DNA of 38,969 nucleotides. It comes from a virus. Below are positions 26,431 through 38,969 of this stretch, piece after piece. The notes beneath the pieces were generated by a model that was given only the letters and a program-made list of their open reading frames with translations, made no database searches and was not told where the DNA came from. Numbering within the stretch: the first letter of the stretch is position 1; each line of letters begins with the position of its first letter. Position numbers and translations under genes: made by a program. Location: the IMG/VR virus record IMGVR_UViG_3300017752_000046, positions 1-38,969 of that record. The stretch is one strand, 5' to 3'.

Positions 26431-26475
26431 GTTACATTATAACTTAATTATGAAGCTAACTTATTCTGTTTTAGA
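26431..26475. repeat. 45-bp direct repeat, left copy
   Basis: Aligns without gaps to 27681-27725 with 8 mismatches by my count. It covers the last codons of the AIPR-like gene, its TAA, and a minus-strand TATAAT (26436-26441). The two copies fall in different reading frames, so protein similarity does not explain it. Confidence 0.8.
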
Positions 26476-27611
26476 CTTTTTAATTCTAAACGAGTTGCTT
26501 CAAACATCTCTTCCCACATTGGTTGGAAATAACCTACTGGTCTCAATTGGTCATATTGTCTAGCTATTCTTACAGCTTTCTGCATTAATTTAAATCCAAT
26601 ATTATCCCAAACTTTTTTAGCAAGGTGATAATTAAATTTTCCTTCCATTGCAATTATTGTTCTAAACGAAGCTATAACTGGAACGAGTACTGCCTGATGT
26701 AATACATATTCCATTTCTTTATCTTCATCAATAAACAATGTTTGATTCTTATTGTTTTTCCATGCAGAAAATATAAACGGATTGTCATCATTAGTTTCCC
26801 CTGTAGCATCGCACCACATTGGATAAGCAGTTTCTTGTACGTAGTCTTTAAATCTATAAATATCTTTTAAACTAGATTTAAATTTCTTGTAGTTGTCATA
26901 TTGTTCTTCATACTTATCTACAATTTTATTCTTACCACCATAGGCAAGCATCTTTGTATTAGGTTCAATCATAAGTTCTGTTCCATCTTTTATCAATGAA
27001 TAAACTGTTGATATGATATCTCTAACTTTTACAGTTCCATCATCTCCTTGAAAATAAACTATTGCATCTTCGTATGGAGTATTTTTAAAAGCGTCTTTAA
27101 TCCACTGAAATTGTCCTTTATGATTTAATAATGATTCATCACTAACTTGCAAAGAATTATTTAAACCAATAGAAATATTTAATCTAGTTGACTCATCTTT
27201 GACACCAGTCATTATGAAAACTCTTACAAACCTATCTTTTGGTATTGTATTCAATTCATCTCTTATAGCACCGTAGAGATGTCCTCCGTTAACAATGCCG
27301 TCTTCATCTGACAATGTAATGGTTATGGAATCATCCTCGACAACTGCGCTATCAGCTAGTATATGAATACCTAAAGAGGCAAACATAAATAAGTCTGGTA
27401 TTTGTTTTTTTTCTGTAATAGCATTTACTAGTTCTTGATATGAACTTTTATCAGCTACTTTCTTTCTAGGGTTTGGTGTATCTGGTAATTCTTCAGCCTC
27501 TGCCAAATCTTTACAGCTAATATACCCATAGTATTCTTTAACATTCTTATCAGTTAAGGAAGTTAATGTACGAATTGCCTGAATAGGCAACGTGATTTTA
27601 GTATTACTCAT
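26448..27611 (-). CDS. AIPR-family (abortive infection) protein
   Basis: 387 aa. Residues 74-118 have FMFASLGIHILADSAV followed by a strand and DGIVNGGHLYGAI, matching the AIPR family core (NGI...IVNGxQT/H). Residues 128-175 (RVFIMTGV, then SIGLNNSLQVSDESLLN and WIKDAF) match the following family segment, in which Asn-rich helices precede 'sL' and an aromatic helix. AIPR proteins were named from lactococcal phage-resistance genes; their biochemical activity is unclear to me. I chose MSNTKI as start because AAAGAAAGAG lies upstream; 19 upstream codons stay open but lack support. The gene has its own candidate promoter, a terminator and flanking direct repeats, so it looks like a transferred accessory unit. 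A DGQHR/DndB-like fold is the main alternative. Confidence 0.7.
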   Translation of the reverse strand: MSNTKITLPIQAIRTLTSLTDKNVKEYYGYISCKDLAEAEELPDTPNPRKKVADKSSYQELVNAITEKKQIPDLFMFASLGIHILADSAVVEDDSITITLSDEDGIVNGGHLYGAIRDELNTIPKDRFVRVFIMTGVKDESTRLNISIGLNNSLQVSDESLLNHKGQFQWIKDAFKNTPYEDAIVYFQGDDGTVKVRDIISTVYSLIKDGTELMIEPNTKMLAYGGKNKIVDKYEEQYDNYKKFKSSLKDIYRFKDYVQETAYPMWCDATGETNDDNPFIFSAWKNNKNQTLFIDEDKEMEYVLHQAVLVPVIASFRTIIAMEGKFNYHLAKKVWDNIGFKLMQKAVRIARQYDQLRPVGYFQPMWEEMFEATRLELKSLKQNKLAS

Positions 27612-27680
27612 TTTATTCTCTTTCTTTATTGAGATATCTTTCTGATAATCTCTCTTAACACACAACATTTGTTGGTGTAA

Positions 27681-31882: not shown

Positions 31883-32104
31883 GTGGGAAACCAGAATCTA
31901 CTTATCGAACAGAATCAATTAGCAATTGATTTAGCTAAAGCAGAACTGAGAGAAGAAATATCTCAGAAAGATATCACTACCAAAGAAGAGGTTAGTGAAT
32001 TAGTAACAGAAACAGCTGATAGATACTATATCAGCTTTGAAGAAGTCGTAAACGAATTAGCAGACTTTGCTAATGAATTTATGGATACAACAGAGGAGGG
32101 GTAA
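31883..32104 (+). CDS. Small acidic helical protein, GTG start
   Basis: 73 aa, GTG start with AAAGGAG 6 nt upstream. Helical and acidic (LAIDLAKAELREEISQKD, then FEEVVNELADFANEF). No family recognised. Joined to the next gene by a one-base TAATG overlap. Confidence 0.65.
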   Translation: MGNQNLLIEQNQLAIDLAKAELREEISQKDITTKEEVSELVTETADRYYISFEEVVNELADFANEFMDTTEEG

Positions 32105-32547: not shown

Positions 32548-34683
32548 ATGAGACAAAAACTCATTTTTCATGAGGACTTAGAGTCCTTAAAGAATAGAAT
32601 CCCTAACTTCACCGAGCGAATACCAAATAGACTCGATGATGGTACGAGATTCAATACAAATCTAACAGACTCGTTAGAGATTATAGAAATACCAATAGGT
32701 CAAATTGTTTGGCTCTTCAGTAGGTATAGAGGTTGGGATGATGCAACAAGACAAGTTACACAAGATATCCGAGCCAATATACAACAGTGGAGTGACCATA
32801 GATACATGTACGAGAATCATGTATGGAACATTGACGATGATGACCTTTACGAAGTGATAAGCGTTGTTTCACGTAAGTTAAAGTTAGACAACATATCATG
32901 GGGTAATCAATCAGACTACAGGGACTTAAATATGAACAAACATAGTTTGTTTATTATGGTTCTTGCAGATGATGAGTCATGGGCACAAACTCAGGACAAC
33001 TGGTTTGTATTACTAAATGGTATTCCAAAATTGTTGTGCAGAGATAGGTTCCATAGACACTCAACAATGTGGTCTTTTTCTAGACCTGATGGTCACTTCT
33101 ACCTTACAAGCTACAGTGGACGAAGTGCACTATCTGAGGATAGGAACTATACAAGATGCTACAACTGTAGTTTGTATGACAAACCTAGGTCAAGAATGGT
33201 ACCTGTCAAGGATATGAGACCAAGACAGAACTATAAGAACTGGAGTCGTGCAAAGAACCTTTGTGACGCATGTGTCAATCACTTAGCGGTACAAGATATA
33301 GCACACTTTGAAGTACCTATAGATGAAACCAACGCATCTAAGTTTGATTACTTAATAGTCAGACCAGGTGTACAAGAATCTGTAGATAGTCAGCGTGTAA
33401 TGCAAGAAGATAAAACTTCTTGGGGTAGTAATAATGTAGGTAGGTTCATGAGAAGAAACATGGACTTAGTTATATACCTAATAGATGGAGAAACTCTAAC
33501 TCTAGGTGAATCAATCAACTTCGAGTATCCATTCGAAGTACATTCACATAGTTGGAATTACAGACCATCGTTTTACTACACACACAATGCTGGTCACCCT
33601 GGTTCTGAGCTTCAGTCAGTCAGCACAACTGCTGATGCTGGTATGAATTTCCAAACGAGATGCGGACCGTTCTTGGGTATGGAATTAGAAGTAACTATCA
33701 GAGAAGATAGAGCAGACCAAAGTAACATACAAAGTGTGATGGAGAAAGCAGTAAGACTGTTTCATCCAATGGATTATCCAAACAACTATAGACAACAAGG
33801 ACCACACCAACTCTTATTTAGGAAAGATGACGGTAGCCTTGATAGTTATAAAGGTACTGAGTATGTTTCAATGCCATTGTCTTTAGATTATTGGAATAAC
33901 GAAGTCCCAGATGTATTCTGGAATTATCTTAAGGATAACTTTCGAGCACTGAATGATGACAGATGTGGTATCCATATACACGTACCATGGGAATCATTGA
34001 TAGTTGTTGAACGATGGATATTCCTTGAGTTGCTTGACACAATGGTTAACCACCCACTTTACAAGCCTCTATTCCAAACTATAACCCAAAGACCATCTGT
34101 GAGTTATGCAAGATGGGATAGGATAACTTATGAAGATAGAGTGGCAGACGATGAGGGTAGCTTGTGGAAAGCAAAGCATGCTGTATTTAATGTAGGTCTT
34201 AATGAGAAACAAACAAGTCCAGCATATAACGCTAAGTACATGGGACTCAATACACTCCATGACGAGACTATGGAGTTGAGATACTTCCAAGGTAACACAG
34301 GACGCAATGGTATCTTAGGCAAAGCACAATTCGTAGGTGCTATGTGGGATATAGCCAAAGCGTATGGACATCCATTTAAAGATTGGGATTATGAAAATGA
34401 TAAACCACCCTTTGCATTAGTTGATATCATTAACGAGATTCAATGTAATGCTGGGGACATCTTACTTGGGTGGATTACAGTAGCAAGCACAACAGATGAG
34501 TTTGCTAGAAAACATAGTCATAAAAGATATGACCAACTTCGTAACTTAATTGCTGCTGCAATAGAGCGCGAAACATATAACTATGACTTTACAAAGAGTA
34601 CAAAAGCCTGGTATGACTTGAATGGCATAGCACGCACTTATGTACAAGAAACAACAAACGACAAACAAGAAAGGACAGGATAA
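32548..34683 (+). CDS. Amidoligase (COOH-NH2 ligase) with N-terminal Cys-rich part
   Basis: 711 aa. Residues 372-600 carry the Amidoligase_2 pattern: GPFLGMELEV (373-382), KDDGSLDSYKGTEYVSMPL (426-444, like DGSL...GxExVSxPL), DRCGIHIHV (471-479) and GLNTL...TMELRYFQGN (566-583). This is the glutamine-synthetase-like fold, which uses ATP to join a carboxylate to an amine. Residues 1-370 are family-unknown, with Cys pairs CYNC (204-207) and CDAC (239-242) that probably bind zinc. A YRPSFYY stretch (338-344) also appears as YRPDYFF in the 369-aa ligase, so they are paralogues. GGAGGAAGG precedes the ATG. The substrate is not visible. Confidence 0.82.
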   Translation: MRQKLIFHEDLESLKNRIPNFTERIPNRLDDGTRFNTNLTDSLEIIEIPIGQIVWLFSRYRGWDDATRQVTQDIRANIQQWSDHRYMYENHVWNIDDDDLYEVISVVSRKLKLDNISWGNQSDYRDLNMNKHSLFIMVLADDESWAQTQDNWFVLLNGIPKLLCRDRFHRHSTMWSFSRPDGHFYLTSYSGRSALSEDRNYTRCYNCSLYDKPRSRMVPVKDMRPRQNYKNWSRAKNLCDACVNHLAVQDIAHFEVPIDETNASKFDYLIVRPGVQESVDSQRVMQEDKTSWGSNNVGRFMRRNMDLVIYLIDGETLTLGESINFEYPFEVHSHSWNYRPSFYYTHNAGHPGSELQSVSTTADAGMNFQTRCGPFLGMELEVTIREDRADQSNIQSVMEKAVRLFHPMDYPNNYRQQGPHQLLFRKDDGSLDSYKGTEYVSMPLSLDYWNNEVPDVFWNYLKDNFRALNDDRCGIHIHVPWESLIVVERWIFLELLDTMVNHPLYKPLFQTITQRPSVSYARWDRITYEDRVADDEGSLWKAKHAVFNVGLNEKQTSPAYNAKYMGLNTLHDETMELRYFQGNTGRNGILGKAQFVGAMWDIAKAYGHPFKDWDYENDKPPFALVDIINEIQCNAGDILLGWITVASTTDEFARKHSHKRYDQLRNLIAAAIERETYNYDFTKSTKAWYDLNGIARTYVQETTNDKQERTG

Positions 34684-34687
34684 TAAT

Positions 34688-35671
34688 ATGTGTGTAATAG
34701 CAAGTATTCCTGCAGGAAAAACAATAGACGACAAGACGTTCGAACAAATGTGGAGTAGAAACCCAGACGGTGGCGGTATCGCTTACATTACAGACTCAGA
34801 CAAGATTGAGGTATTCAAATCTATGGATGAGAAAGAACTGTTAGCACAATACAAAGTGATAAGTAAAAAGCATGGTAATCATGACATGCTTATCCACATG
34901 CGTATTGCGACTCACGGTTCTGTATGTATGGATAACAATCATCCATTTTGGATTGACCCACATACAGTGTTCGCACACAACGGTATATTGCCTAACCACT
35001 TTCATCCATCTGCTAAGTCAGACTTGTCTGACACAAGATACTTTAACCAAGTATATTTGCAGTATGTGAAGCCAGTGGCGTTCGATGACGAAGGATTCCG
35101 TGAGCAATTGGGTGAGATTATTGGCTTCAACAAGCTGGTAATACTATCAACCAATGCTAAGTTACGTAAAGAATCTTACATAATCAACGAACGACAAGGC
35201 AGTTGGGAAAATGGTGTATGGTATTCAAACACACATCACCTACCAACGCAGAGTTTTGTATTCGGTGGTGGCAAAACAAACTACAAGACAACTAAAAGAA
35301 AGACCAAGTCTTCATCACGATATCAGTTAGACCTAACAAGTAGTACTGATAAAGGGTACATGGTCAATCCAGAACTGTATACTGACCCGACCTTTGTTGA
35401 GTCAGTCAATGCAATGCTAGATTACACTGGGTTCAAGGATGTAGAAGACATGCTTATTGAATATGAGATGGAAGTCAATCCAGTAACAGGTGACTTTGTT
35501 TGCTTAGCTTGTGGTGAGGCAGTAAGTACAGACACAAAAAGAGCGTGTCTAAGTGACTGTTGGGCTACAGAAATGTTAGGACTTGGTTCAGAGTATGACG
35601 ACCAAGAATGGCAAATGGATTCATGCGATGTAAGAATCGATGTAGATAAAATAGCTAGGGACTCTAAGTAG
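34688..35671 (+). CDS. Class II glutamine amidotransferase (Ntn hydrolase)
   Basis: 327 aa. It begins MCVIAS, so Met removal would expose the N-terminal Cys nucleophile of the Ntn-type glutaminase. Family motifs follow: NPDGGGIAY (25-33), HMRIATHG (70-77), NNHPF (83-87), FAHNGIL (95-101) and SDTRYF (114-119). It should release ammonia from glutamine, or cleave a related amide. A frame extending 16 codons upstream is rejected because it would bury the nucleophile. Residues 265-300 hold CLACGE and CLSDCW, a likely zinc ribbon. The gene starts 4 nt after the amidoligase stop, suggesting the two act together. Confidence 0.9.
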   Translation: MCVIASIPAGKTIDDKTFEQMWSRNPDGGGIAYITDSDKIEVFKSMDEKELLAQYKVISKKHGNHDMLIHMRIATHGSVCMDNNHPFWIDPHTVFAHNGILPNHFHPSAKSDLSDTRYFNQVYLQYVKPVAFDDEGFREQLGEIIGFNKLVILSTNAKLRKESYIINERQGSWENGVWYSNTHHLPTQSFVFGGGKTNYKTTKRKTKSSSRYQLDLTSSTDKGYMVNPELYTDPTFVESVNAMLDYTGFKDVEDMLIEYEMEVNPVTGDFVCLACGEAVSTDTKRACLSDCWATEMLGLGSEYDDQEWQMDSCDVRIDVDKIARDSK

Positions 35672-35694
35672 TCTCTAGCGGAAAGGATATAAAT

Positions 35695-36081
35695 ATGGCA
35701 GTTCCAAAATGGAATTTAGAATTAGTAAAACGTGATATAGAAGGAATAAAGTTATTAGCAGATGGCACAATAAATGTTGAAGTACGTGACGAGGGTACAG
35801 CTACCTACGTTAGACATGGTCATCTCGATATAACTTTAAGTGATATATTTCCAGACATAGAATCGGATACGGATGACAACCCTCAAAACTACACTGATAT
35901 GCAGGATGCAATACTCCAGTACATATATGACGAAGGTATTGTATACGACTATGAACTTACTGAAGAAGACTTTCACGACCACGATAGTGAGGACATAACC
36001 ATGAACGAAATTAATCTATACAACAGTCAGGGTGCAAGTGTTACACCTGAAGAAGTAGACAACATGCTCGAGGGAGCATAG
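35695..36081 (+). CDS. Acidic MAVPxWN protein 1
   Basis: 128 aa, MAVPKWNLELVKRDIEG at the start; beta-rich middle (TATYVRHGHLDITLSDIF) and acidic end (EEDFHDHDSEDITMNE). It shares start, layout and acidic DxHD-type segment with the protein at 36600, so they are paralogues. No known family. Its place inside the amidoligase-amidotransferase operon makes a substrate, carrier or adaptor role possible; a DNA-mimic role is the alternative given the charge. AAAGGAT precedes the ATG. Confidence 0.7.
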   Translation: MAVPKWNLELVKRDIEGIKLLADGTINVEVRDEGTATYVRHGHLDITLSDIFPDIESDTDDNPQNYTDMQDAILQYIYDEGIVYDYELTEEDFHDHDSEDITMNEINLYNSQGASVTPEEVDNMLEGA

Positions 36082-36092
36082 AAAGGAGCCCA

Positions 36093-36224
36093 ATGGGTTA
36101 CTTAATAAACTTGTTCAAAGCAGAACAAAAAATAAACAATATCAAAAGTCAAGGGTACGATGATACCTTTGACTCAGTCATAGACGAATCGTTTATGAAT
36201 AGAGATAGAAAGGACAATGAATAA
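36093..36224 (+). CDS. Small operon protein
   Basis: 43 aa, MGYLINLFKAEQKINNIKS then DTFDSVIDESFMNRD. AAAGGAGCC lies upstream, and the TAA shares one base with the next ATG. Not recognised; amphipathic N-terminus. Confidence 0.6.
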   Translation: MGYLINLFKAEQKINNIKSQGYDDTFDSVIDESFMNRDRKDNE

Positions 36225-36457
36225 TGCCTATGAGTAGATATCTAGTACAGGAAGAATACCGTGAAGACGTTAGAGGTGTTCGTGTAGTACTTGTAGAAGC
36301 AGAAAGTAAAGAAGCCGTTATTGAAGATGGTGAATACGAAGTGCTTGATATAGTAGAAGAACTTGATTCATCAGCTGATTGTTATTCGACTAGTTTAGTT
36401 GATGACGTTCAGTTCTTACAATCTGGATGGACAGAACTTATAAAGGAGGATAAATAA
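36224..36457 (+). CDS. Small acidic operon protein
   Basis: 77 aa, MPMSRYLVQEEYREDVRGV, then VLVEAESKEAVIEDGEYEV and an acidic end. Mixed strand and helix, net negative; no family recognised. Joined on both sides by TAATG one-base overlaps, so translation is tightly coupled with the amidoligase genes. The VEAESKEAVIEDG segment resembles a short phage fold seen in DpnD/PcfM-like small proteins, but weakly. Confidence 0.65.
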   Translation: MPMSRYLVQEEYREDVRGVRVVLVEAESKEAVIEDGEYEVLDIVEELDSSADCYSTSLVDDVQFLQSGWTELIKEDK

Positions 36458-36600
36458 TGCCTAAGTTATTTTACGCAAGTATATCAAAAGATATAACTGT
36501 TTATGCTGATGATGAACAAAACGCATTATACGAAATAAGAAAGATGTATCAAAACTTTGGAGAAAATCTTGAAGTTGAGATATTTGATGAGGAGGAATAA
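36457..36600 (+). CDS. Small acidic operon protein
   Basis: 47 aa, MPKLFYASISKDITVYADDEQ at the start region and EVEIFDEEE at the end. The strand-helix-strand pattern (FYASISKDITVYA, then NALYEIRKMYQNF) is similar to the preceding 77-aa protein, so they may share a fold. One-base TAATG overlaps occur at both ends, and AAAGGAGGAT precedes the ATG. Confidence 0.7.
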   Translation: MPKLFYASISKDITVYADDEQNALYEIRKMYQNFGENLEVEIFDEEE

Positions 36601-36971
36601 TGGCAGTACCAGATTGGAACAAGCCTAATTTTGTGATAGACGAAAGAGAAATAGCAGTCGACGAAGATGGTCATACCTTTAGACAGATAGATGAAGGTAA
36701 CTTACCTTTTGAAACTGGCACTACTGTGAGGGTAACTGAAAGAGTTAGTGGTATCGCAATGTACAGTGAGACCAGGTCTTTGGATTTACCTATATCAGAG
36801 ATAATCGAGCATGCTAATTATATAGAGTACGAGATTAGAAATAGATATGACCTTGAAAGTCTTGCAGAAGATATGGCAAGAGAGATGGAATTCGACGACT
36901 ATAACGACGATATTGAATACGACGACCACGATGCTAATGATTTTGAAATTGAATCAGCAGTAACTATATAA
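36600..36971 (+). CDS. Acidic MAVPxWN protein 2
   Basis: 123 aa, MAVPDWNKPNFVIDEREIAV at the start; TTVRVTERVSGIAMYSETRS in the middle; the last 40 residues are dominated by Asp and Glu (FDDYNDDIEYDDHDAND). Paralogue of the 35695 protein. It lies immediately before the second amidoligase gene (12-nt gap). Likely partner, carrier or target of the ligases, or an acidic decoy; unproven. Confidence 0.7.
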   Translation: MAVPDWNKPNFVIDEREIAVDEDGHTFRQIDEGNLPFETGTTVRVTERVSGIAMYSETRSLDLPISEIIEHANYIEYEIRNRYDLESLAEDMAREMEFDDYNDDIEYDDHDANDFEIESAVTI

Positions 36972-36983
36972 AGAAAGGACGAT

Positions 36984-38093
36984 ATGTTATTAGAAAATAG
37001 ACTAAGTGAAGATAGAAAAGCACAAATACAAAGACAACTAACCTATAACAGTGATACTTCAATTCACGGTTATAGTTACAGACCAGACTACTTCTTTGTT
37101 GGTGGAGAACAGATGCTAGAAAGCTGGACCTCTCCGACAAAAGTAAACAGTAAGTTCATAGATACACAAGGAGTACCTATGGGTTTCGAGTTAGAACTTG
37201 AGAAGAGGCACGATTGTTATGATGTTGATGAGAGAGTAGAAGAATTTCTCTACGAGCAAAATAAAACAATGGGCTCTAAGTATTACGTCCATAGATTGAA
37301 TACCTATGCAAACGACGTAACAGCGAAGATAAACAATCTAGTACCACACTTGCTATATGCAAAGACTGATAGTTCTCTTGATAATGGTGTGGAGTTTGTT
37401 ACTCAGCCAATGACATTGGAAGTACACAAAGGTGTTGGTTATGTATTTGACAAGTACAATGATGCTTTAGCTGGGTATCAAAGAAGCACTACAGGTATGC
37501 ACATACACATACCAAAAGGTGCATTCACAAATGCTCAGCTATATCTATGGATGTTCTTCATGGACATGTTAGGTACAGCAAGTGTCAGACATCAGAAGTT
37601 CGGAAACGTGCTTACACTTATTGGACAACGTGAGTTCAACAGTTGGGCAAGATTCGAAAAACCATCATATGGTACAGGAGCTAAACATCAGTTAGCACAG
37701 GTAGCAATTGATAGAGTGGACCATGGTGGTACTAGATACAAGTATGTCAACTATCAGAACAGACCTACTCTAGAGTTAAGGTTCTTCAAGGCCAACATGC
37801 TTGAGCATAGAATACTTAAGAACCTAGAGTTTGCTGACTCTACGTTTGAGTTTGTAAAGTATATAACAAGCAATGATTACGATGCTTCTGATATGCTGCA
37901 CTTAGCAACATCACTAAGTGATTACTTTGGGTTCCTTGTTTCAAAAGGTGACAGGTATTCAAATCTTAAGAGTTATCTTGACAGATACAGAGATAGAATA
38001 AATATTCAAGGTCCAGTACTTGACGAAGAAGATACTGATGCTTTGGAAAATATTCTAACCGACGAATTGATAAGCGTAGTGGAAGGGGTTTAA
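36984..38093 (+). CDS. Second amidoligase (COOH-NH2 ligase)
   Basis: 369 aa. Amidoligase_2 motifs in order: MGFELELEK (66-74), AKTDSSLDNGVEFVTQPM (126-143), TGMHIHI (170-176) and KYVNYQNRPTLELRFFKAN (253-271). This is a nearly minimal catalytic domain, unlike the 711-aa paralogue, and lacks the Cys-rich front. Two ligases plus a glutaminase in one operon imply two amide-forming steps or a heteromeric enzyme. AAAGGACG precedes the ATG. The stop shares one base with the next ATG. Confidence 0.85.
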   Translation: MLLENRLSEDRKAQIQRQLTYNSDTSIHGYSYRPDYFFVGGEQMLESWTSPTKVNSKFIDTQGVPMGFELELEKRHDCYDVDERVEEFLYEQNKTMGSKYYVHRLNTYANDVTAKINNLVPHLLYAKTDSSLDNGVEFVTQPMTLEVHKGVGYVFDKYNDALAGYQRSTTGMHIHIPKGAFTNAQLYLWMFFMDMLGTASVRHQKFGNVLTLIGQREFNSWARFEKPSYGTGAKHQLAQVAIDRVDHGGTRYKYVNYQNRPTLELRFFKANMLEHRILKNLEFADSTFEFVKYITSNDYDASDMLHLATSLSDYFGFLVSKGDRYSNLKSYLDRYRDRINIQGPVLDEEDTDALENILTDELISVVEGV

Positions 38094-38212
38094 TGCAAGA
38101 ACTAGTACTTAGTTATATAACTGTAGTACTTCTTACGCTACTACTACCTTTTGCATTCATCATATTTATGGGTGTATTGCTTTTCTGGGAAGTAGAACGT
38201 AAAGCTAAGTAG
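38093..38212 (+). CDS. Membrane mini-protein at the end of the amidoligase operon
   Basis: 39 aa with a long hydrophobic span (YITVVLLTLLLPFAFIIFMG) and a charged tail ending EVERKAK. It starts in the TAATG overlap with the second amidoligase. It may anchor the pathway at the membrane or be unrelated (holin-like, exclusion). Confidence 0.65.
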   Translation: MQELVLSYITVVLLTLLLPFAFIIFMGVLLFWEVERKAK

Positions 38213-38873: not shown

Positions 38874-38969
38874 TGTTAGTAATACTATTAATATGCATAG
38901 CAATTGTTTTTGCTAGCGCGGAAGATTTGTGGAGTGATATAAAACAAGATAGAGAGGATACTTGGTTAT
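38873..38969 (+). CDS. Membrane or secreted mini-protein, cut by window edge
   Basis: At least 32 residues. A hydrophobic N-terminus (LVILLICIAIVFASA) looks like a membrane span or signal peptide and is followed by a charged part (EDLWSDIKQDREDTWL). Starts in a TAATG overlap. The C-terminus is outside the window. Confidence 0.55.
   Translation, partial: MLVILLICIAIVFASAEDLWSDIKQDREDTWL

Follow-up and report, generated by a model that had tools for sequence, protein, structure and literature searches.

Pairs of amidoligase and glutaminase genes have appeared in phage annotations from 2009 at the latest (Iyer et al., cited in a passage of PMC10580990), and they recur over many phage lineages and on some plasmids. 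In podoviruses, a 'peptidoglycan modification cassette' has been described for phages RIO-1, PSA-HP1, phiEco32, LUZ24 and tf (PMC5498523, PMC3890496). That of PSA-HP1 and its relatives encodes two amidoligases, a glutamine amidotransferase, an ATP-grasp enzyme and a gamma-glutamyl cyclotransferase, and has been proposed to change peptidoglycan and to prevent superinfection (PMC5498523); the peptidoglycan idea is also cited for phiEco32 in a passage of PMC10580990. No experimental test of the cell-wall idea was found in the literature. The block described here belongs to IMG/VR virus record IMGVR_UViG_3300017752_000046, whose whole length of 38,969 bases is referred to below as the window. At positions 32548-38212, on the plus strand, two amidoligases, AmiL1 and AmiL2, bracket a class II glutaminase and several small proteins; this arrangement, first pointed out in a sequence-only reading of the window, is confirmed. 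Because the PSA-HP1-type cassette has them too, two amidoligases and a glutaminase are not new in themselves. Judged from sequence, the new features are a supported clade of two-ligase modules, a zinc-finger ligase beside the glutaminase with a second ligase devoid of finger, a zinc knuckle on the glutaminase, and 'VPxWN' proteins in the nearest relatives of the window.

The association of ligase and glutaminase is highly conserved. Searching IMG/VR with AmiL1 or AmiL2 as single queries gave no matches; a profile built on the ligase only recovered 80 IMG/VR loci, which together with three further loci, and after removal of duplicates, make up 82 virus loci (these and other loci are designated below by L numbers). 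A glutaminase gene adjoins the ligase in 73 of them, the gap between the two genes having a median of 11 bases. Counted by lineage, adjacency is found in 18/19 at 40% ligase identity and in 35/39 at 70%. As the loci were recruited by the ligase alone, this count is independent of the choice of loci, and the conservation of the gene set in unrelated contigs excludes a chance arrangement. The set is thus kept together in related phages, in support of the dedicated, conserved module that the sequence-only reading had proposed. Named phages with the pair include the cluster S mycobacteriophages, the OM43 phages and a Stenotrophomonas phage, and it is also present on three mycobacterial plasmids and in actinobacterial genome contigs.

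AmiL1 (32548-34683) is 711 residues long and AmiL2 (36984-38093) 369 residues long. The ligase motifs initially read from the sequence are indeed there: GMELE, CGIHIHV and MELRYF in the former, GFELE, GMHIHI and LELRFF in the latter. AmiL2 scores above the curated Pfam cut-off for Amidoligase_2 (PF12224; 24.3 vs 22 bits). AmiL1 itself has no Pfam match to this family, which is reached by its orthologues in L011 (23.2 bits) and L105 (31.3 bits). Both ligases match phrog_16683 of the PHROG database, and AmiL1 matches the ligase profile with an E-value of 3e-55, the seed alignment having included AmiL1. A search for COOH-NH2_lig (PF14395) returned no match over the cut-off, nor any positive control match. 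Among 44 ligases from unrelated contigs, the invariant residues are, in AmiL1 numbering, G377, E379, E381, D428, E438, P443, G474, H476, R515, E576, R578 and F580, and AmiL2 keeps every one of them. The Amidoligase_2 residues G-x-E-x-E, D, E, G-x-H-x-H, R, N and E-x-R are complete in both proteins, which share ~25% identity and are old paralogues. Their G-x-H-x-H and E-x-R motifs presumably resemble those of glutamine synthetase (GS).

The predicted structure of AmiL1 points in the same direction. Its catalytic domain (residues about 366-610, 33643-34377) is modeled with a pLDDT mostly above 90, and confidently so over residues about 370-530 and 570-640. VIA-align superposes the model (range about 366-685) on glutamine synthetases with a Z of ~10.8 (rmsd 4.7-6.9, 213-229 residues aligned) and on YbdK (GCS2) with a Z of 10.6. 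Foldseek matches also include the Pup ligase PafA and the depupylase Dop, and the BFVD matches carry the name amidoligase. The modeled AmiL1 catalytic domain thus adopts the glutamine-synthetase fold, and AmiL2 probably does likewise by homology to AmiL1. The GS-like fold, on which the sequence-only reading had made its ligase assignment depend, is hence found in the AmiL1 model, and the invariant ligase residues are kept in both proteins.

Upstream of its catalytic domain, AmiL1 possesses an N-terminal extension with a putative zinc finger, C204-x2-C207 ... C239-x2-C242 (33157-33273). All four cysteines are invariant among AmiL1 orthologues and each is kept in 36-39 of the 44 ligase rows. The region is modeled as a hairpin followed by a helix, with a modest pLDDT of ~56-72, and exhibits weak profile matches to LIM, FYVE, RING and uS14 zinc fingers. 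Across the 44-ligase alignment, arrays of up to 18 CxxC are observed (a simple pattern count, the zinc motifs being predicted from sequence); AmiL2 has no CxxC at all.

The glutaminase (34688-35671, 327 residues) probably starts at 34688 with ATG TGT, encoding Met-Cys, and not at the longer ATG at 34640. It matches GATase_4 (29.9 bits vs a cut-off of 23), phrog_25883 (6e-30) and the glutaminase chains of GlmS in the PDB (8e-8), with RIATHG, NxHP and HNG aligned; its RIATHG, NNHPF and HNG motifs are spaced as in the glutaminase domain of GlmS. The sequence therefore has the features of a class II (Ntn) enzyme, namely a Cys that becomes N-terminal once Met is cleaved off, together with the GlmS-type Arg, Asn-x-His-Pro and His-Asn-Gly motifs, and the Ntn-type glutaminase with an N-terminal Cys that had been read between the two ligases is borne out. 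Its C-terminal part harbors a putative zinc knuckle, C-x2-C-x(n)-C-x3-C (35501-35560), which is present in 15/15 two-ligase loci of the AGA and GAA orders defined below and in 56/84 of the other glutaminases scanned. Zinc motifs in the ligase and in the glutaminase tend to be found together (26/33 vs 1/5 lineages, p = 0.02, in a post hoc test whose thresholds were picked after the data had been seen), which would fit docking or shared targeting. To note, a single 450-residue protein of L017 (6824-8176), encoded beside a zinc-motif amidoligase, combines a class II glutaminase with a domain resembling gamma-glutamyl cyclotransferase (GGACT, 3.1e-19), a fusion suggestive of gamma-glutamyl chemistry for this lineage at least. 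A general association of GGACT with the module was not retained: it occurs in 5/49 records, too few, with no virus background for comparison.

Two-ligase modules occur in three gene orders: AmiL1-glutaminase-AmiL2 (AGA; the window and nine distinct relatives), glutaminase-AmiL1-AmiL2 (GAA; five) and AmiL-AmiL-glutaminase (AAG; seven). In 20 to 21 of the 22 sampled, rows of the L102 type included, two or more CxxC are counted in the ligase adjacent to the glutaminase and none or one in the other; L084 has CxxC motifs in both ligases. The finger-bearing ligase always adjoins the glutaminase in the two-ligase modules sampled (n = 22). In the phylogenetic tree, the ligases of AGA and GAA modules come together in a single clade, which includes one extra member (support 98/94). 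Within it, eleven AmiL1 make up a clade of their own (100/99), and the AmiL2 of the window groups with those of L011, L013, L014 and L102 (100/100). The AAG lineage is placed elsewhere, outside the AGA/GAA clade, and two-ligase modules therefore arose more than once. The AmiL1 of L015, L016 and L111 fall on the AmiL2 side with a branch length of 1.98 and are counted as unplaced; strict AmiL1 monophyly is not claimed on account of these three proteins on a long branch. Both paralogues were kept across this divergence, each with its active site intact, which speaks for separate functions. The rule of a zinc-finger ligase beside the glutaminase, with a finger-free second ligase, represents a division of labor that is open to test.

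Between the glutaminase and AmiL2 are located five small genes. The first encodes SAP-1 (35695-36081), an acidic protein of 128 residues including 32 D/E and 6 K/R, recognized by its family profile, and the last its paralogue SAP-2 (36600-36971; 123 residues, 34 D/E, 9 K/R), the two having in common a MAVPxWN start and an Asp/Glu/Tyr-rich tail. The model of SAP-2 is poor (pLDDT 53). One to three members of this VPxWN family lie between glutaminase and AmiL2, or just 3' of AmiL2, in L011 (three), L013 (two), L014 (two), L102 (one) and L105 (one). No further significant member was found in the collected loci or in 26 whole records, L105 falling short in the stricter whole-record search. A 192-199-residue acidic protein occupies the same slot in L015, L016 and L111; its match is sub-threshold (E 0.65-3), and homology to VPxWN proteins is not claimed. 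The SAP genes are separated by a 43-residue microprotein (GYDDTFDSVIDES, 36093-36224), with relatives in L013 and L102 (~1e-12) and weakly in L011, all of which sit 5' of AmiL1, and by two small acidic proteins of 77 residues (36224-36457; weak relatives at most) and 47 residues (36457-36600; no clear relatives). The SAP family recurs in near relatives, and the small genes at 36093-36600, initially counted with the set, are not a fixed part of it. The last gene of the block (38093-38212) encodes a 39-residue protein with a hydrophobic segment; small hydrophobic proteins are also found directly 3' of AmiL2 in L015/L016 and L107, with no claim of homology.

One-base TAATG couplings had been said to join these genes. 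They are present at 36224, 36457, 36600 and 38093, and also at 32104, and thus tie in the 77-, 47- and 39-residue proteins and SAP-2; the junctions AmiL1/glutaminase, glutaminase/small gene and small gene/AmiL2 have gaps of 4, 23 and 12 bases, respectively. Purine-rich sequences resembling ribosome-binding sites precede the genes of the module. The G+C content of the block is close to that of the whole record (0.382 vs 0.361). The left part of the window contains leftward-transcribed terminase, portal, protease, capsid, tape measure and tail genes, as in a siphovirus-like phage, and rightward small genes begin at ~29.5 kb. The record may be a fragment and ends at 38969, so that the downstream context of the module is incomplete. 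Between the terminase genes, a protein of the AIPR family (PF10592, 2.9e-12) is encoded at 26448-27668 on the minus strand; this family is known from phage-resistance genes.

The chemistry put forward in the sequence-only reading, amide ligation by GS-fold ligases working beside a class II glutaminase, is supported by the motifs and by the AmiL1 model. Our preferred reading, held tentatively and at slightly less than even confidence, is that the operon carries out an amide ligation that consumes ATP and glutamine, on a macromolecule that the zinc modules would recruit and that is most likely a protein of the host or of the phage. It builds on the computed families, conserved active-site residues, GS fold of AmiL1, conserved adjacency and pairing of one zinc-finger with one finger-free ligase. 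The class II glutaminase would hydrolyse glutamine and hand ammonia to AmiL1, as family knowledge and adjacency lead us to infer. AmiL1 would activate a carboxylate with ATP as an acyl phosphate and turn it into an amide. AmiL2 would then carry out a second, related ligation, at another site or with an amine other than ammonia, this order of steps also being our inference. The zinc modules on AmiL1 and the glutaminase may serve to join the two enzymes, to guide them to their target, or both, and the acidic VPxWN proteins might be partners, adaptors or substrates. The protein target, the role of the acidic proteins and the benefit to the phage are guesses; a protein is put first, with low confidence, because the CxxC arrays on the ligases suggest a macromolecular partner or target. 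A more specific version, in which the module is a zinc-docked split amidotransferase whose Zn-finger ligase and Zn-knuckle glutaminase amidate or extend acidic side chains of a specific host or phage protein in two steps, is considered doubtful. Should the target prove to be a protein, the operon would represent a novel type of protein modification directed by a phage, the zinc-docked two-step version not having been described before in phages. The zinc modules would provide a handle for fishing out the target.

Several points speak against modification of a zinc-recruited protein. The N-terminal ~370 residues of AmiL1 have a pLDDT below 50, except for the zinc-finger-like hairpin-helix around C204/C207/C239/C242, and the zinc fingers could be structural instead. 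A shared ammonia supply is uncertain for AmiL2 because in many cases this ligase does not adjoin the glutaminase. No demonstrated activity or target was found in the literature for any member, and that literature leans to a cell-wall role for such genes (PMC5498523, PMC10580990). Such a role constitutes the main rival, a genuine possibility if an unlikely one: cytoplasmic amidation or extension of stem peptides on cell-wall precursors, at Glu or diaminopimelate carboxylates, in the manner of MurT/GatD though with unrelated folds, would exclude superinfecting phages or confer resistance to lysins. In its favor, this is what has been proposed in print for the podoviral cassette, in which two amidoligases and a glutaminase are accompanied by an ATP-grasp enzyme and a cyclotransferase (PMC5498523; Iyer 2009 as cited in a passage of PMC10580990). 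However, one would not expect zinc-finger arrays if the substrate were a small precursor linked to a lipid or a nucleotide, and the accompanying enzymes did not turn up. No RimK-type ATP-grasp match over the cut-off was obtained in the window or its two-ligase relatives (control matches in 13/14 genomes; this family only was searched), and the ATP-grasp enzyme of the Stenotrophomonas cassette, used as query, found no match in the window contig, which is possibly a fragment. No gamma-glutamyl cyclotransferase was found in the same contig; the contigs of L011, L111 and L112 do encode this enzyme, at a distance from the module.

A role in small-molecule or anti-defense chemistry is improbable; here the enzymes would form or cap an amide on a metabolite, a nucleotide or a signal molecule, for instance as a way of blocking a defense signal. 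The set is self-contained and mobile, as seen on the mycobacterial plasmids and in Labedaea, where the pair lies beside SSB and a TrwC relaxase, and in the window and several relatives it is located in a small-gene region transcribed away from the structural genes. Yet no known defense-system model was matched (the library covers defense, not counter-defense), and no DNA- or nucleotide-modification gene was recognized by eye among the recurrent neighbors, so that neither the anti-defense step nor the nucleotide or DNA precursor initially listed as possible gained support; from that list, protein or cell wall are the most likely targets. Pup-like tagging, in which a ligase would conjugate an acidic VPxWN protein via its carboxylate to lysines of a target protein, appears very improbable. 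The matches of AmiL1 to PafA and Dop and the one to three acidic small proteins in the operon would favor it, but VPxWN proteins have variable C-termini (TI, GA, II, RE, RN, WE, IN, VN, EQ), with no conserved last residue comparable to the C-terminal Glu/Gln of Pup, and among the records searched the family is limited to near relatives of the window, most such modules lacking it. The peptide tag envisaged earlier is accordingly not shown and, in its Pup-like form, disfavored. Finally, the addition of amide groups to modified bases of phage DNA is barely credible: zinc fingers could bind DNA and replication-type genes follow the module on its 3' side in several relatives, but no base-hypermodification gene was recognized nearby, by eye and with whole records not annotated.

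The pair is also found in other arrangements. It is carried by plasmids of Mycobacterium intracellulare (L142, 8084-9756), where it lies 3' of a very large methyltransferase-domain protein, and Mycobacteroides abscessus (L143, 8094-9792). Two Nocardia genome contigs harbor it twice in tandem (L128, 4799-8859; L130, 4736-8862), and one virus contig contains three successive amidoligase-glutaminase pairs (L056, 806-9715). Clostridioides phage AR1086-1 and like contigs (L003, L078, L079, L085, L087, L088, L090) encode a ligase with neither zinc motif nor adjoining glutaminase; a rule that glutaminase-less ligases lack zinc fingers was dropped, since it rests mostly on this one lineage. Recurrent neighbor families were judged by eye, without Pfam annotation. 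Among them, WhiB-like small Cys proteins form a cluster of 29 loci and occur within a few genes of the pair, 3' of the glutaminase (L018, L020, L047, L054, L060 and others), which suggests actinobacterial hosts for those phages.

Compared with known systems, the window resembles the podoviral cassette in that amidoligase(s) and glutamine amidotransferase are clustered in the non-structural part of the genome, with two amidoligases in PSA-HP1 as well. It differs by the zinc motifs on AmiL1 and the glutaminase and by the VPxWN proteins, the LUZ24-like Stenotrophomonas locus being without zinc motifs, and by the ATP-grasp and cyclotransferase that the cassette has in addition. In the cluster S mycobacteriophage Marvin, an amidoligase with a zinc motif (gp105) likewise precedes a class II glutaminase that carries a zinc motif at its C-terminus (gp106), but there is a single ligase (~32% identity over 57% of AmiL2) and there are no VPxWN proteins. 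Gp05-gp06 of the OM43 phages MEP401 and MEP402 (PMC10580990) are similar in having a long amidoligase whose gene overlaps that of a class II glutaminase, whereas they comprise one ligase and a glutaminase without zinc knuckle. GS, YbdK and PafA/Dop share the fold of the AmiL1 catalytic domain at ~10% identity and differ in substrate and partner glutaminase. MurT-GatD (PMC3267633, PMC5871853) offers an analogy, as two proteins achieve glutamine-dependent amide formation in peptidoglycan; its folds are those of Mur ligases and class I glutaminases, and no homology is claimed. Lastly, FJK.R9 phages evolved on Pseudomonas biofilm both gained missense changes in an amidoligase and in the adjacent-numbered gp23, annotated as an aminotransferase (PMC11450229). 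This gp23 may be a glutaminase, and the changes hint at a role of the two proteins in infection.

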